Source: an uncultured Ignavibacterium sp. (GTDB lineage: Bacteria > Bacteroidota > Ignavibacteria > Ignavibacteriales > Ignavibacteriaceae). Taken from it: a stretch of DNA of 45,347 bases. This document shows, piece after piece, positions 40,351 through 45,270 of the stretch. Below the pieces are notes generated by a model that did no database searches, was not told the origin of the DNA, and saw nothing but the letters and a program-made list of their open reading frames with translations. The stretch covers positions 1 through 45,347 of the forward strand of contig CALEBT010000041.1 in assembly GCA_937942875.1 (NCBI GenBank). The letters are read 5' to 3'. Every line of letters starts with the position of its first letter. Within the stretch, counting starts at the first letter, position 1. A program made the position numbers and the translations under genes.

Positions 40351-40556
40351 TATTCTACTCCTTTACTGAGTTTAAATTGATTATATGATGAGGTTTTATA
40401 TCGGTTAAAGTTAAAATCATTAGTGAGCAAATACTATAAAAATTTCAAAAAATGATTATTTTCATTTCAAACTTATAAAAAATTATTAATCGATAAAATT
40501 ATTTTTAAGTTTTTATATTAATAATAACAACATATATTTTTAAATAGTTCTTTAAA
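40351..40556. other. AT-rich divergent promoter region between sdhC and the B12 riboswitch
   Basis: This ~200-bp gap holds no gene. It must contain the promoters for the leftward sdh operon and the rightward B12 locus, since those genes are divergent. It is very AT-rich and I cannot single out convincing -35/-10 boxes by eye. Confidence 0.4.
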
Positions 40557-40744
40557 AATTTTACAGTGTTCTCGTCCTAAAATTTTAGGATAAGAGAAAT
40601 TATAGGGAAGTCCGGTGAAAATCCGGCGCTGTCGCGCAACTGTGAAATTCAGTAAGCAGTATGCAATAAACAGTAGGCAAAATGTTGCTTACTGCATACT
40701 GCCAACTGCCTACTGAATGAAGCCAGGAGACCTGCTGTAAAATT
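40557..40744 (+). promoter_or_regulatory. Cobalamin (vitamin B12) riboswitch aptamer
   Basis: The core is unmistakable: GGGAAGTCCGGTGAAAATCC, then GGCGCTGTCGCGCAACTGTG at 40614-40644, and the B12-box AGCCAGGAGACCTGC at 40721-40735. A closing helix P1 pairs 40557-40566 (AATTTTACAG) with 40735-40744. A second helix at 40569-40598 contains the perfect palindrome TCCTAAAATTTTAGGA. The peripheral stem at 40647-40718 is built from 7-bp repeats. B12 riboswitches of this class turn down B12 uptake genes when adenosyl- or other cobalamins are plentiful, in agreement with the receptor gene downstream. The loop-5 base order (TCGCG) differs from the more usual CCCGC, and the downstream loop is complementary in part. 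Confidence 0.95.
40650..40715 (+). repeat. Inverted pair of 7-bp repeats (CAGTAGG family) forming a riboswitch stem
   Basis: On the plus strand, 40650-40677 reads CAGTAAG, CAGTATG, CAATAAA, CAGTAGG, plus CA. After a 6-base spacer, 40688-40715 reads CTTACTG, CATACTG, CCAACTG, CCTACTG, preceded by TG. The second arm is the same repeat on the other strand (CAGTAGG, CAGTTGG, CAGTATG, CAGTAAG). Pairing of the arms extends the helix base ATTCAGTA/TACTGAAT. Confidence 0.85.
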
Positions 40745-40883
40745 CTTTTTAATCAACCTTCGCGGGTGAGGTAAGATTAACGATAGACTCTCAAAATTTC
40801 TTTTCGTTGTATCTCAGCTTGACTTCGCGAAGTTACTTTGTTTAAGTAAACAATTAACTGTGCTTTCAGGAGTAACTTCGATG
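40745..40883 (+). promoter_or_regulatory. Riboswitch expression platform controlling the btuB ribosome binding site
   Basis: Three segments compete. Segment A (40758-40766) lies in a small hairpin, ACCT 40756-40759 with AGGT 40769-40772, whose loop contains CGCGG. Segment B (40823-40839) contains the palindrome ACTTCGCGAAGT. Segment C (40869-40880) covers the Shine-Dalgarno AGGAG (40868-40872) up to the start codon. B (CGAAGTTACT, 40828-40837) pairs perfectly over 10 bp with C (AGTAACTTCG) and would block translation. A can pair with B over 9 bp, including two G-U pairs, and would free it. This is read from complementarity only. Confidence 0.65.
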
Positions 40884-42818
40884 ATAAAAAGGACGCTTTG
40901 TCTTTTTTTAACATATTTATCTTTTACCACAGGTAATTTATCAGGTCAAACTGATGATTCCTTAAAAACTTATTCTTTGAGTCAAGTTGTTGTTACTGCA
41001 ACAAAATTTGAAATTGACGCAGGATATTCTCCAAGCAGAATTGAAATAATTAATTCCAACCAGATAAAGAACTCAAATGGTAGTCGTCTGGCAGATATCT
41101 TAAATCATTCTCCTGCAGTCTTTATAAAATCTTATGGCTCTACCGCTTCACTTAAGACGATTTCATTAAATGGTCTTGGTGCTGAACATACCTTAATACT
41201 TATAAATGGTGTTAAAATAAATTCGTTCCAGAACGGTCAAATAGATTTATCTCTTATTCCAAAAGAAAATATTGAAAGAATCGAAATAGCGAATAATGGA
41301 ATAAGTTCGATCTATGGCAGTGAAGCTGTTGCAGGAGTTGTAAATATCATTACTAATAATAGTAATCACAAATTATTTGATAATAGTATCAGTGTTACTG
41401 CCAATGCTGGTTATGGTTCATTTAATACATCAAGACTCGGAGTTTCATTAAGCAATAGAATAAATGATTTCAATTTTGGTATATACTACAGCAAAGAAAA
41501 ATCAGATGGAAATTTTGATTATTACTTTAATAACGGTTTGGAGAAAATATTAAAGAAACGGGAAAATGCAGCTTACAATCTGCAGGATGTTGGTATAAAC
41601 TCACAATTATTTTTTAACAGTAATAACAGATTAATTTTTTACTCTACATATTCATCTCAAGATAAGCAAGTACCAGGAATTGAAACAGGTACTCCTCCAT
41701 CAAAAACCGAACAGAAGGATAAAAACTGGAACAACATAATTAGTCTTGAAAATAATTTTAACGAAAGATTATTCCTTAAAACGAACTTTAATTTTCAGAA
41801 TAACCTGATGAATTATGAAATTAAACCTTTTATAAACAGTTACTATAAAAACATAGTAGCGGGTATTTCCCCTGAACTGAATATAAAGTTATCTGATTAT
41901 GATATTATAACAGGTTACAGTTTCACTTATGCTGATTTGAAGAGTAATGAAGTTGAAGATAAGTCAAGAAGAAATCAACACGCATTATTTATTTCAGGAA
42001 GTAATAATGTATTTAATAATCTTAAGCTTTTTGCGTCATTAAGGGTTGATCATTTTTCCGATCTCAAAAAAAATGCTTTGACATCCCGCCTCGGATTTAA
42101 TTTCAAACCATTTGACAAAATTGCTCTGAATCTGCGGGCAAATGTCGGTAATAATTTCAGAGCTCCAACTTTTAATGATCTTTACTGGAAAGAGTCAGGT
42201 AATCCAAACCTTAAACCTGAAAGATCTTTCAATTTTGAAACAGGATTTTTAGGACTATTTGAGTTGTTAATACCAATACAATTTGATTTTTCTTTCACAT
42301 ACATAAATGCAAAAGATAAAATTATCTGGCTACCTCAGAGAAATTTTTTTTGGTCACCTGTTAATGTTGGTTCATCAGAATCGAAAAATTATTTATTAAA
42401 CCTTTCTTATAATCAAAAGATTTCTGAGCAATTAGAACTGGGATTGAATTCAGGAATTAATTTTATCAACTCTAAGAAAACAAATGAGTCCTTTCAGAAT
42501 GATCCGACAATAGATAAATATTTTCCTTATCTGCCTTTGCAATCAATAAAACTTGGGGTGATGATAGATTATAAAAATTTCGGAATTAATCTTTTTTACA
42601 CTCATACAGGAAAGAGATATTCTGATTTTGAGAATAAAAAACCGATGAACCAGTTCAATATTCTCGATGGAAATATCACTTTTGATTTTAGTATGTGGGA
42701 AACAAAGACTTCATTAAAGTTTGAGGTAAATAATATTACTAACACAGACTATCACACAATATCCGGCTATCCGATGCCGTTGAGAAACTACTTCATAACA
42801 TTATCAATTAACTATTAG
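40881..42818 (+). CDS. btuB: TonB-dependent vitamin B12 receptor (BtuB-like)
   Basis: A 645-residue outer-membrane receptor from the ATG at 40881, with AGGAG at 40868-40872. A longer frame starting at the GTG at 40860 would swallow the ribosome binding site. The signal peptide is residues ~1-23. A TonB-box-like region and plug domain follow (VVVTATKFEIDAG, then LADILNHSPAVFIKSYGS, TLILINGVKIN, ERIEIANNGISSIYGSEAVAGVVNI). The C-terminal 450 residues are a 22-strand barrel, with NFRAPTFNDLYW and the terminal aromatic strand YFITLSINY. The cobalamin riboswitch directly upstream assigns B12 as the substrate. It lies 10 bases before the BtuG-like gene. Confidence 0.9.
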   Translation: MIKRTLCLFLTYLSFTTGNLSGQTDDSLKTYSLSQVVVTATKFEIDAGYSPSRIEIINSNQIKNSNGSRLADILNHSPAVFIKSYGSTASLKTISLNGLGAEHTLILINGVKINSFQNGQIDLSLIPKENIERIEIANNGISSIYGSEAVAGVVNIITNNSNHKLFDNSISVTANAGYGSFNTSRLGVSLSNRINDFNFGIYYSKEKSDGNFDYYFNNGLEKILKKRENAAYNLQDVGINSQLFFNSNNRLIFYSTYSSQDKQVPGIETGTPPSKTEQKDKNWNNIISLENNFNERLFLKTNFNFQNNLMNYEIKPFINSYYKNIVAGISPELNIKLSDYDIITGYSFTYADLKSNEVEDKSRRNQHALFISGSNNVFNNLKLFASLRVDHFSDLKKNALTSRLGFNFKPFDKIALNLRANVGNNFRAPTFNDLYWKESGNPNLKPERSFNFETGFLGLFELLIPIQFDFSFTYINAKDKIIWLPQRNFFWSPVNVGSSESKNYLLNLSYNQKISEQLELGLNSGINFINSKKTNESFQNDPTIDKYFPYLPLQSIKLGVMIDYKNFGINLFYTHTGKRYSDFENKKPMNQFNILDGNITFDFSMWETKTSLKFEVNNITNTDYHTISGYPMPLRNYFITLSINY

Positions 42819-42828
42819 GAGGTTCAAA

Positions 42829-44148
42829 ATGAAAAAATTCTTTTCTACCATTTTGTTTTTGGCTGTTGCTGTTTTTTTAAATGCACAACAACTAAGTAAA
42901 GTTTATGTTCTTTCAGAAGGTGGTTTCAGTGCCGGAACTTCGATGCTTTCTTTATATGATAACTTCAACAACATTTTTACACAAAGTATTTTTTCGCCGG
43001 GAAATATAGGCTTATATCCAGATGGTTTAGTTTATCACGAAGGTTATCTTTATTTAACGGAACAAGGAAGCTTTGGAAGTAGTGGTAAGATTTATAAACT
43101 CGATACGCTTGGAACTGTTTTATCCTCAGCAACAGTCGGAACAAATCCGTATTCACTTGCAATCACCAATAACAAAATCTATATAACAAACGGTCCGGCA
43201 AGCAATGTTTCGGTTTTGAATCTGAATGACCTTTCTTTTGTTAAAAACATTTCTGTAGGTGTGTACCCACAGGAAATCATAACATTTAACAATAAAGTTT
43301 TTGTTGCCAACAACAGCTTATTCGGGGGTTCTTCCGATTCAACTGTCTCAGTTATCGATGCCTCACTTGATTCGGTTGTCGCTACAATTACTGTTAAGAA
43401 AGACCCATCTGCATTTGCAATAACAAATGATAACTATTTGCTTATTGGTTGCCCGGGAAATCAAATCAACGGCAGAATATATAAGGTTGATCCAGCCACA
43501 TATCAGAAAATTGCAGAATATAGCATACAGGGCTTTGGGTTTGGCAAAGATATTTCAGTGGATAAAAACAGCAATAATATTTTCTTCATATCATATACAA
43601 ATGACATTGTTAAGTATGACTTAACAAATGGGAATACATCTTTAGTTCTTGCATCGGTTTATCCAAATAATTACTATTATGGCTATGCTTTTGATTATAC
43701 CTCAAAAAAACATTTTGTTCTTGATGCAAAAAACTTTGTAGTTGAAGGAACATTAAGTATTCTTGACAGCTTATTCAATTTATTGGCAACACATCAAACT
43801 GGCATTGCTCCAAGAAGAATTGAATTTAAGTATTATGATAATCCTTCGGGTGTTGATAATAAATTTATTGCAAACACTTTTATGCTCGATCAAAATTATC
43901 CTAATCCTTTTAATCCAAGCACTCGTATTAGTTGGCAGTCACCAGTAGGCAGTAGGCAAACATTAAAAGTCTATGATGTTCTTGGAAATGAAATCAGAAC
44001 TTTAGTTGATGAGTACAAAGAGGCAGGCAAATATGAAGTTGAATTTAATGCAAATGATATTCCGAGTGGTATTTACATTTATAAACTAACAATAACCACC
44101 GAGAGCAAAATATTTACATCATCCAAAAAAATGACATTGTTAAAATAA
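42829..44148 (+). CDS. BtuG-like beta-propeller protein with T9SS sorting tail
   Basis: A 439-residue exported protein. The signal peptide is MKKFFSTILFLAVAVFLNA. Residues ~22-340 form a YncE/DUF5074-type beta propeller with repeated strands: KVYVLSEGGF, then NKIYITNGPASNVSVLNLND, NKVFVANN, and STVSVIDASLDSVVATITV. The last ~85 residues are a type IX secretion tail (NYPNPFNPSTRISW, VYDVLGNEIRTL, GIYIYKL, KKMTLLK). In Bacteroides, BtuG proteins of the DUF5074 propeller type capture B12 at the surface and cap BtuB, but are lipoproteins. Here the same partner position follows btuB under one riboswitch, with the lipid anchor replaced by a T9SS tail. The B12-binding role is an inference. Confidence 0.8.
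   Translation: MKKFFSTILFLAVAVFLNAQQLSKVYVLSEGGFSAGTSMLSLYDNFNNIFTQSIFSPGNIGLYPDGLVYHEGYLYLTEQGSFGSSGKIYKLDTLGTVLSSATVGTNPYSLAITNNKIYITNGPASNVSVLNLNDLSFVKNISVGVYPQEIITFNNKVFVANNSLFGGSSDSTVSVIDASLDSVVATITVKKDPSAFAITNDNYLLIGCPGNQINGRIYKVDPATYQKIAEYSIQGFGFGKDISVDKNSNNIFFISYTNDIVKYDLTNGNTSLVLASVYPNNYYYGYAFDYTSKKHFVLDAKNFVVEGTLSILDSLFNLLATHQTGIAPRRIEFKYYDNPSGVDNKFIANTFMLDQNYPNPFNPSTRISWQSPVGSRQTLKVYDVLGNEIRTLVDEYKEAGKYEVEFNANDIPSGIYIYKLTITTESKIFTSSKKMTLLK
43929..43958 (+). repeat. CAGTAGG-family 7-bp repeats inside a coding region
   Basis: Bases 43929-43958 read TAGTTGG, CAGTCAC, CAGTAGG, CAGTAGG, CA. This is the same repeat family that forms the riboswitch stem 3.3 kb upstream. Here it encodes the SWQSPVGSRQ segment of the T9SS tail in frame. 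Confidence 0.8.
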
Positions 44149-44167: not shown

Positions 44168-44356
44168 ATGCTGAAGGATATATTGAAGATTGCTCATAAA
44201 AACGGAATCATTCTGAGAAAAGACAAGTTTATTTATGATAATAAAGAAATAAGTTTTTCGGAATTTATTGCTTTCATTAACAAGCATAAATTTAATAAAG
44301 GAATCGAAAAAGCAATTTTAAATTCTAAAAAGGTACTTTTTAATGTTAAGCAATAA
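44168..44356 (+). CDS. Small hypothetical protein (62 aa) in the B12 locus
   Basis: A 62-residue protein with a good ribosome binding site (AAAGAGG, 44155-44161) 20 bases after the BtuG-like gene. It is basic, has no membrane helix, and is mostly helix with one strand-turn (IILRKDKFIYDNKEISFSEF). It overlaps the CWC gene by 14 bases, which suggests coupled translation. I recognise no family. Confidence 0.6.
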   Translation: MLKDILKIAHKNGIILRKDKFIYDNKEISFSEFIAFINKHKFNKGIEKAILNSKKVLFNVKQ

Positions 44357-44585
44357 ATACGAAATAAAACGGTGCCCGAGATGCAACAAAGAATTTCAAT
44401 GCAAATCGGGCAACATAACTCAATGCCAGTGTTTTGCAATCCAGCTTAACAGTGCAGAGCTGAGATTCATTAAAGAAATTTATGATGATTGTTTGTGCGC
44501 CGAATGCATGATTAAAATGAAACAATTGTACAGAGAAAAGCAGGTCCTCGAATATTTTTCAGCTATTAAGCACGATAGTATTTAG
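44343..44585 (+). CDS. Cysteine-rich CWC-family protein
   Basis: An 80-residue protein with the CWC pattern: CPRCNKEFQC near residues 11-20, CQCFAIQL near 28-35, and CLCAEC near 51-56. Seven cysteines in such a small protein imply metal (probably zinc) binding. The family has no established function. Its position in the B12-regulated cluster, overlapping the 62-aa gene, suggests a role in B12 handling, but this is inference. About 150 bp separate it from the DUF6580 gene, with no terminator visible. Confidence 0.8.
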   Translation: MLSNKYEIKRCPRCNKEFQCKSGNITQCQCFAIQLNSAELRFIKEIYDDCLCAECMIKMKQLYREKQVLEYFSAIKHDSI

Positions 44586-44733: not shown

Positions 44734-45270
44734 ATGAGCGAAATGGTTAAAAAGATATCACCAAACTTTTTGGTTGTAACTTTAATGGTATTTGCTGCTG
44801 CGTTTGTAAGACTTATACCGCATCCTCCAAACTTTGCACCGATTGCTGCAATGGCTTTATTCGGAGGATCTTACTTCAATAAAAAATCTTTTGCATTTGC
44901 GGTTCCTCTTGCTGCAATGTTTTTAACTGATTCAATAATTGGCTTTCACTCAGGAATGTGGATTGTCTATTTGAGTTTTGCATTGATTGTAGTAATCGGA
45001 ATGTTGATTTTAAAGAAAGTAAGTGTTAAAAATGTTGTACTTGCTTCGGTTACAGCTTCAATCAGTTTCTTTATCATAACAAACTTCGGTGTTTGGGCAT
45101 TCGGAACAATGTATCCTAAAAATATTGCAGGTTTAATCGAATGTTATGTTGCTGCAATTCCATTTATTCATAATACTTTAATTGGGGATTTATTCTTCAG
45201 TGGTATAATGTTCGGAGTCTATGAATTTGCAAAAACAAAACTCCCGGTTTTATCCGAAGCAAAAGCTTAA
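44734..45270 (+). CDS. DUF6580-family putative transport membrane protein
   Basis: A 178-residue membrane protein with a ribosome binding site (AAAGGAAA) before the ATG. It has five or six membrane helices and the family's HPPNFAPIAAMALFGG segment near residues 30-45, TDSIIGFHSGMW, and a C-terminal IPFIHNTLIGDLFFSG. The arrangement resembles the substrate-binding (S) subunits of ECF vitamin transporters. That, and its place at the end of a B12-regulated cluster without BtuCDF, make inner-membrane uptake of B12 or a precursor an attractive guess. No ECF ATPase genes are nearby, so transport itself is unproven. Confidence 0.82.
   Translation: MSEMVKKISPNFLVVTLMVFAAAFVRLIPHPPNFAPIAAMALFGGSYFNKKSFAFAVPLAAMFLTDSIIGFHSGMWIVYLSFALIVVIGMLILKKVSVKNVVLASVTASISFFIITNFGVWAFGTMYPKNIAGLIECYVAAIPFIHNTLIGDLFFSGIMFGVYEFAKTKLPVLSEAKA

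Follow-up and report, generated by a model that had tools for sequence, protein, structure and literature searches.

A BtuG-like propeller protein with a type IX secretion tail encoded beside a riboswitch-controlled BtuB-like receptor in an uncultured Ignavibacterium sp.

Background

BtuG1, BtuG2 and BtuG3 of Bacteroides thetaiotaomicron (PMC6143338, PMC10404256), the closest described counterparts of the protein studied here, are seven-bladed propellers displayed as surface lipoproteins; their genes adjoin btuB and are preceded by a cobalamin riboswitch. Within BtuB2G2, a linker at the N-terminus runs along loops of the receptor, and a role as a hinge has been proposed for it (PMC10404256). 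BtuK1 of the same organism (9s6c), also a lipoprotein, shares the B12-binding propeller fold. Cargo proteins of the type IX secretion system (T9SS) of type A (TIGR04183) carry a Sec signal and a sorting domain. The same repeat type and fold occur in E. coli YncE and in the archaeal YVTN propeller 1l0q, for neither of which a link to btuB is known to us.

Organization of the locus

The window, that is, the whole stretch of 45,347 nt analysed here (contig CALEBT010000041.1, positions 1 to 45,347), came from an uncultured Ignavibacterium sp., a host outside the Bacteroides group. The following features were found on its forward strand:

40547–40753, + strand: cobalamin riboswitch (RF00174) at the head of the locus (cmscan 76.7 bits, E 2.8e-17)
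40860–42818, + strand: BtuB-like TonB-dependent receptor, 652 aa from GTG (plug and barrel; TIGR01779; BtuB1 8blw_A)
42829–44148, + strand: BtuG-like propeller protein with T9SS tail, 439 aa (ORF, family models, profile, fold)
44168–44353, + strand: ORF of 62 aa, no family found (68% identical in the nearest relative, L032)
44343–44585, + strand: cysteine-rich CWC protein (PF14375, 1.5e-13; 75% identical in L032)
44734–45270, + strand: DUF6580 membrane protein, candidate inner-membrane partner (PF20221, 9e-62)

The riboswitch, scoring well above the RF00174 gathering score of 31.5 bits, was the sole one detected in the genome, which is 71% complete. Translation of the receptor more likely begins at an ATG at 40881 than at the GTG. 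Only 10 bp, within which an AGGAGG was located, separated the receptor gene, ending at 42818, from the start of the propeller ORF at 42829. The original prediction had described the same ORF coordinates, the 10-bp gap and a btuB-like gene headed by a riboswitch, all of which were confirmed.

Domains and export signals of the propeller protein

The 439-aa protein was divided into four parts, all on the + strand:

42829–42885, + strand: Sec (SPI) signal peptide, approximately residues 1–19, no lipobox (sequence; model helix 2–15)
42892–43830, + strand: seven-bladed propeller domain, residues 22–334 (model blocks mostly at pLDDT 90–96)
43840–43881, + strand: predicted flexible C-terminal tether, residues ~338–351 (pLDDT <50 at 338–350)
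43882–44145, + strand: T9SS type A C-terminal sorting domain, residues 352–439 (PF18962, TIGR04183; model beta strands 353–437)

The signal peptide read MKKFFSTILFLAVAVFLNAQ|Q. Its cut site, around which no Cys is found, aligned with the lipobox Cys of relatives; hence the lipobox Cys and lipoprotein export signal of a surface lipoprotein such as BtuG were missing. The protein scored above the gathering score of DUF5074 (PF16819, 31.3 versus 27.2) and above the cut-offs of both tail models (Por_Secre_tail PF18962, 35.3 versus 27; TIGR04183, 31.6 versus 23), and its match to the YncE model fell far under the cut-off of that model. With a Sec signal and a Por_Secre_tail, it has the make-up of T9SS type A cargo, in keeping with the DUF5074 propeller, Sec signal, lack of a lipobox and T9SS tail that had been read from the sequence beforehand. 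In the AlphaFold model (overall pLDDT 88), the very low confidence at residues 338–350 suggests that the tether is probably flexible.

Relationship to BtuG

When the propeller protein was used as a single-sequence query against the PDB, no match was retrieved other than a subunit of hydrazine synthase and a generic YVTN propeller. A profile of 25 sequences, comprising this protein and 24 relatives mostly of the same class, had BtuG3 (8p97_B) as its top match with an E-value of 2.8e-31, positions 1–342 aligning collinearly on 1–353. Second by E-value was the archaeal 1l0q, with a score added up over repeats; all remaining BtuG entries were matched at 1.2e-23 or better, versus 2.6e-11 for E. coli YncE. 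In a Foldseek search with the AlphaFold model, 16 of the 17 top rows were BtuG, the exception being 1l0q at rank 6, and VIA-align gave Z scores of 34 to 37 for BtuG (37 to BtuG1), 32 for 1l0q and 28 for YncE; BtuK1 was more remote than BtuG, at Foldseek rank 18 with a Z of 28.7 compared with about 37. Residues 21–336 aligned on BtuG, although identity in the structural alignment was just 16% to 20%. The seven-bladed propeller and full-length similarity of a BtuG were thus found (E 2.8e-31 to BtuG3, Z 37 to BtuG1), and the comparison of predicted structures proposed earlier returned a propeller nearest to BtuG. Since the sequence profile and the fold were both nearest to BtuG, the protein was regarded as a BtuG relative.

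With BtuG1-3, the protein shared the EG-F loop of blade 1 and the pocket aromatics at the positions of Trp194, Tyr316 and Tyr335 of BtuG2. Among the 22 tailed forms described below, the Trp194 position was F, W or Y in all 22, that of Tyr335 was F or Y in all 22, and that of Tyr316 was Y or F in 17, while Trp272 and Tyr239 had no firm counterpart. The net charge of this propeller was -5, versus -16 counted for BtuG2, and long-range electrostatic capture may therefore be weaker. The low identity to BtuG, the two lost pocket residues and the weak charge would fit a BtuG fold with an altered ligand or duty, such as binding of a different cobamide or of a metal chelate, or a structural role as a lid, and in B. 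thetaiotaomicron, no cobalamin binding was observed for BtuK2, which is similar to BtuK1 (PMC12751083). However, nearly all sampled loci were under control of a cobalamin riboswitch, and putative corrinoid adenosyltransferase genes were present in lipoprotein loci of the same family, so that an altered ligand or duty is considered very unlikely. We infer instead that the propeller binds B12, attaches to the surface and contacts the receptor, in the manner of BtuG, a very tight corrinoid binder that forms a stable lid complex with BtuB.

Distribution and gene order in relatives

About two dozen of the 197 genomes surveyed in the class encoded full-length relatives of the propeller, with a riboswitch on the same contig, at most about 4 kb away, in nearly all of them (G070 and G116, whose contigs end at the propeller, could not be assessed), and with a btuB relative as the neighbouring gene wherever the contig continued. 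Among 247 genomes of the phylum, 108 had profile matches; most of the 40 loci that were read shared the gene order, and a riboswitch was near nearly all of those checked. The tailed propeller gene started -4 to 15 bp after the receptor gene in most loci. A narrower profile was used for the scan of the genome collection, where matches were mostly T9SS tails of unrelated proteins. In Gracilimonas mengyeensis, a cultured member of the Balneolales, the riboswitch, btuB and a tailed propeller gene occurred in the same order.

Placement beside btuB in a cobalamin-riboswitch locus, as in BtuG, therefore recurs in relatives, and a survey of the kind proposed earlier placed them next to btuB and a B12 riboswitch at nearly all sites inspected. 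T9SS tails were common in the genomes examined, which would favour a generic YVTN/YncE propeller with such a tail that came to lie beside btuB by chance; however, the order recurs in dozens of genomes, and profile and fold alike favour BtuG over YncE, leaving this explanation a negligible probability. Chance placement was ruled out by the same gene order in many genomes. The original prediction of a BtuG-type propeller delivered by T9SS was largely supported by the predicted fold, the gene order and the exchange of lipid anchor for tail, and none of its refuting outcomes that were checked came about, but the part confining it to this lineage was not, because the tailed form also occurs in Balneolales and in several unnamed families.

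The lipoprotein loci of family f8 mostly have an adenosyltransferase-like gene between btuB and the propeller gene; judged by eye from its HIYYGYGKGKTT motif, the product reads as a corrinoid adenosyltransferase.

The BtuB-like receptor

Family searches with the receptor identified a TonB plug and barrel. Its best specific model was TIGR01779 (TonB-B12, E 8e-55), but the 186.4 bits obtained were below the equivalog cut-off of 599.7. The nearest solved chains were BtuB1, BtuB3 and BtuB2 of B. thetaiotaomicron, the best being BtuB1 (8blw_A, 3.7e-38). As the cut-off was not reached, yet B12 receptors supplied both the top-scoring model and the closest solved structures, the receptor was named BtuB-like.

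In the receptor tree, which had the same main groups as the propeller tree, the receptor of the window clustered with receptors having a BtuG neighbour, and BtuG-less receptors formed a separate clade. The receptor and the BtuG-type lid thus seem to travel together. At the cobalamin riboswitch, six genomes from the family to which the window belongs, one of them from the same genus, had a more distant TonB receptor without BtuG, and in four of these six loci sdh genes lay on the opposite flank, as they do in the window, both judged by eye. These BtuG-less riboswitch receptors, at L214:3922-5958 and in L211-L216, would fit an in-place swap of a receptor-lid module.

Exchange of anchor and tether

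Across the class and the phylum, 66 BtuG relatives were compared, with the tailed side propellers of L111 and L115 left out and lipoboxes called by a broad rule that takes in LQSC, YSGC and similar motifs (three cases by eye). A T9SS tail without a lipobox was present in 22 and a lipobox without a tail in 44, and none of the 66 had both. Of ten members chosen for a check with the curated model, TIGR04183 was found in all seven tailed proteins and in none of the three lipoproteins. Lipid anchor and T9SS tail were exchanged even inside a single family, and both forms were encoded in a single locus in G159 and G193 (loci L036:9761-13087 and L039:7578-10851), with an adenosyltransferase-like gene between the tailed and the lipid-anchored propeller genes.

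In an unrooted propeller tree built without signal and tail, the tailed form required at least four changes, all four forced by well-supported branches. Within a well-supported set of 24, the nine tailed forms of the window's class were nested among 15 lipoproteins. None of 200 bootstrap trees showed the tailed forms with a single origin. Such an origin was also rejected when enforced as a constraint, monophyly costing 272 log units (AU test, p 2e-43). The anchor has been swapped repeatedly, several times in evolution.

The spacers changed along with the anchors. The stretch between the lipid Cys and the first strand had a median length of 16 residues in lipoproteins, versus 4 residues after signal cleavage in tailed forms; past the conserved Pro of the last blade, lipoproteins had 7 residues to the end, versus 23.5 to the C-terminal domain in tailed forms, the start of this domain being model-dependent (the Pfam start is 5 residues later). 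Read from the sequences, a tether of approximately 16 residues is relocated from the N-terminus to the C-terminus together with the anchor. Because a propeller's first strand lies next to its last, a C-terminal hinge of similar length, at the same place as the N-terminal one, is plausible for the tailed forms.

T9SS genes and proposed mode of action

In the window's genome (71% complete), SprA was encoded on contig G000:C25 and the sortase PorU on G000:C30 (989 bits), so that the translocon and sortase expected for T9SS cargo were both present. PorP_SprF did not serve as a T9SS marker here, since it was weak or missing in relatives as well. According to PMC10202324, T9SS cargo may be shed into the medium instead of being anchored, and a T9SS tail alone cannot separate release from anchoring; the tight packing of receptor and propeller genes is compatible with either. 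The propeller could accordingly be secreted and released as a soluble corrinoid scavenger that re-docks on the receptor, with no tethered lid. We consider this unlikely, since the tailed form replaces lipid-anchored homologues and has a tether of similar length, and the genome has a gene for a PorU sortase.

The propeller probably captures corrinoids at the surface in the manner of BtuG; it would serve as the lid of the adjoining BtuB-like receptor and be exported by T9SS and fixed by its C-terminus. Gene order, homology, the predicted fold, mutually exclusive anchors, their repeated exchange and the T9SS core genes are the observations behind this reading. When cobalamin is scarce, the riboswitch would permit expression of the receptor and propeller genes. 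The propeller would be carried over the inner membrane by Sec and moved through the outer membrane by T9SS via its C-terminal domain, which PorU would then cleave off, attaching the propeller to the surface by a flexible C-terminal tether. The pocket face would take the corrinoid, shut onto the receptor and pass the ligand on for TonB-driven import. Compared with BtuG of Bacteroides, the lipidated N-terminal tether would be replaced by a C-terminal T9SS tether of similar length, and the hinge could stay where it was; corrinoid binding, lid action, surface fixation and the position of the hinge are what we infer.

Because the lipid anchor, which is part of the definition of BtuG, is missing, we prefer to call the system a T9SS-tailed BtuBG variant and not a strict BtuG. 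Unlike BtuG1-3, the protein has a Sec signal and a T9SS C-terminal domain in place of a lipobox and lipoprotein export signal, and its tether is C-terminal; unlike other T9SS type A cargo, with which it shares the Sec signal, the sorting domain and SprA and PorU in the genome, it is likely the partner of a TonB-dependent receptor. From YncE and 1l0q it differs in that these match the whole domain more weakly in sequence and structure. The variant, considered new, is not confined to the window's lineage and is also present in Balneolales and other families. In the open-licence literature, BtuG and type IX secretion were co-mentioned solely in a reference list, and no text combined DUF5074 with cobalamin.

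In the window's class and in Balneolales-type genomes, B12 receptors are thus accompanied by BtuG-like proteins, with a T9SS tail in about one third of the sample read and a lipid anchor in about two thirds. The mechanism of capture is hence tied neither to lipid anchoring nor to the gut. The chances are about even that lids of TonB receptors are interchangeable between two unrelated display routes, the tether switching ends at nearly constant length and the pedal-bin mechanism being indifferent to the type and end of the anchor. The pair of tailed and lipid-anchored forms gives a direct handle on the lid model by asking whether the tether can exit from either end.

Neighbouring genes and minor observations

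A peripheral stem of the riboswitch was lengthened by a 75-base hairpin (40648–40722) of degenerate 7-base GCAGTAG units with a fold z-score of -6.2. Units of this type recurred at 43935–43958, in the region coding for the T9SS tail, making 7 sites in total versus 0.03 expected.

Between the propeller and DUF6580 genes, the 62-aa ORF and the CWC protein gene were both retained in the nearest relative, L032. The DUF6580 gene adjoined the riboswitch-controlled receptor in L032, L033, L051 and L053, and in L211-L216, where the receptor lacks BtuG, proteins resembling the DUF6580 protein were seen by eye at the same position. The DUF6580 protein (44734–45270) may be an inner-membrane B12 importer; its predicted model was poor (pLDDT 63), and the match to the ECF S-component 4hzu_S in the structure search (TM 0.47) is a hint only. 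In L111:3232-4893 and L115:3628-4971, a second, divergent T9SS-tailed propeller, perhaps another capture protein, followed a lipoprotein relative of BtuG.
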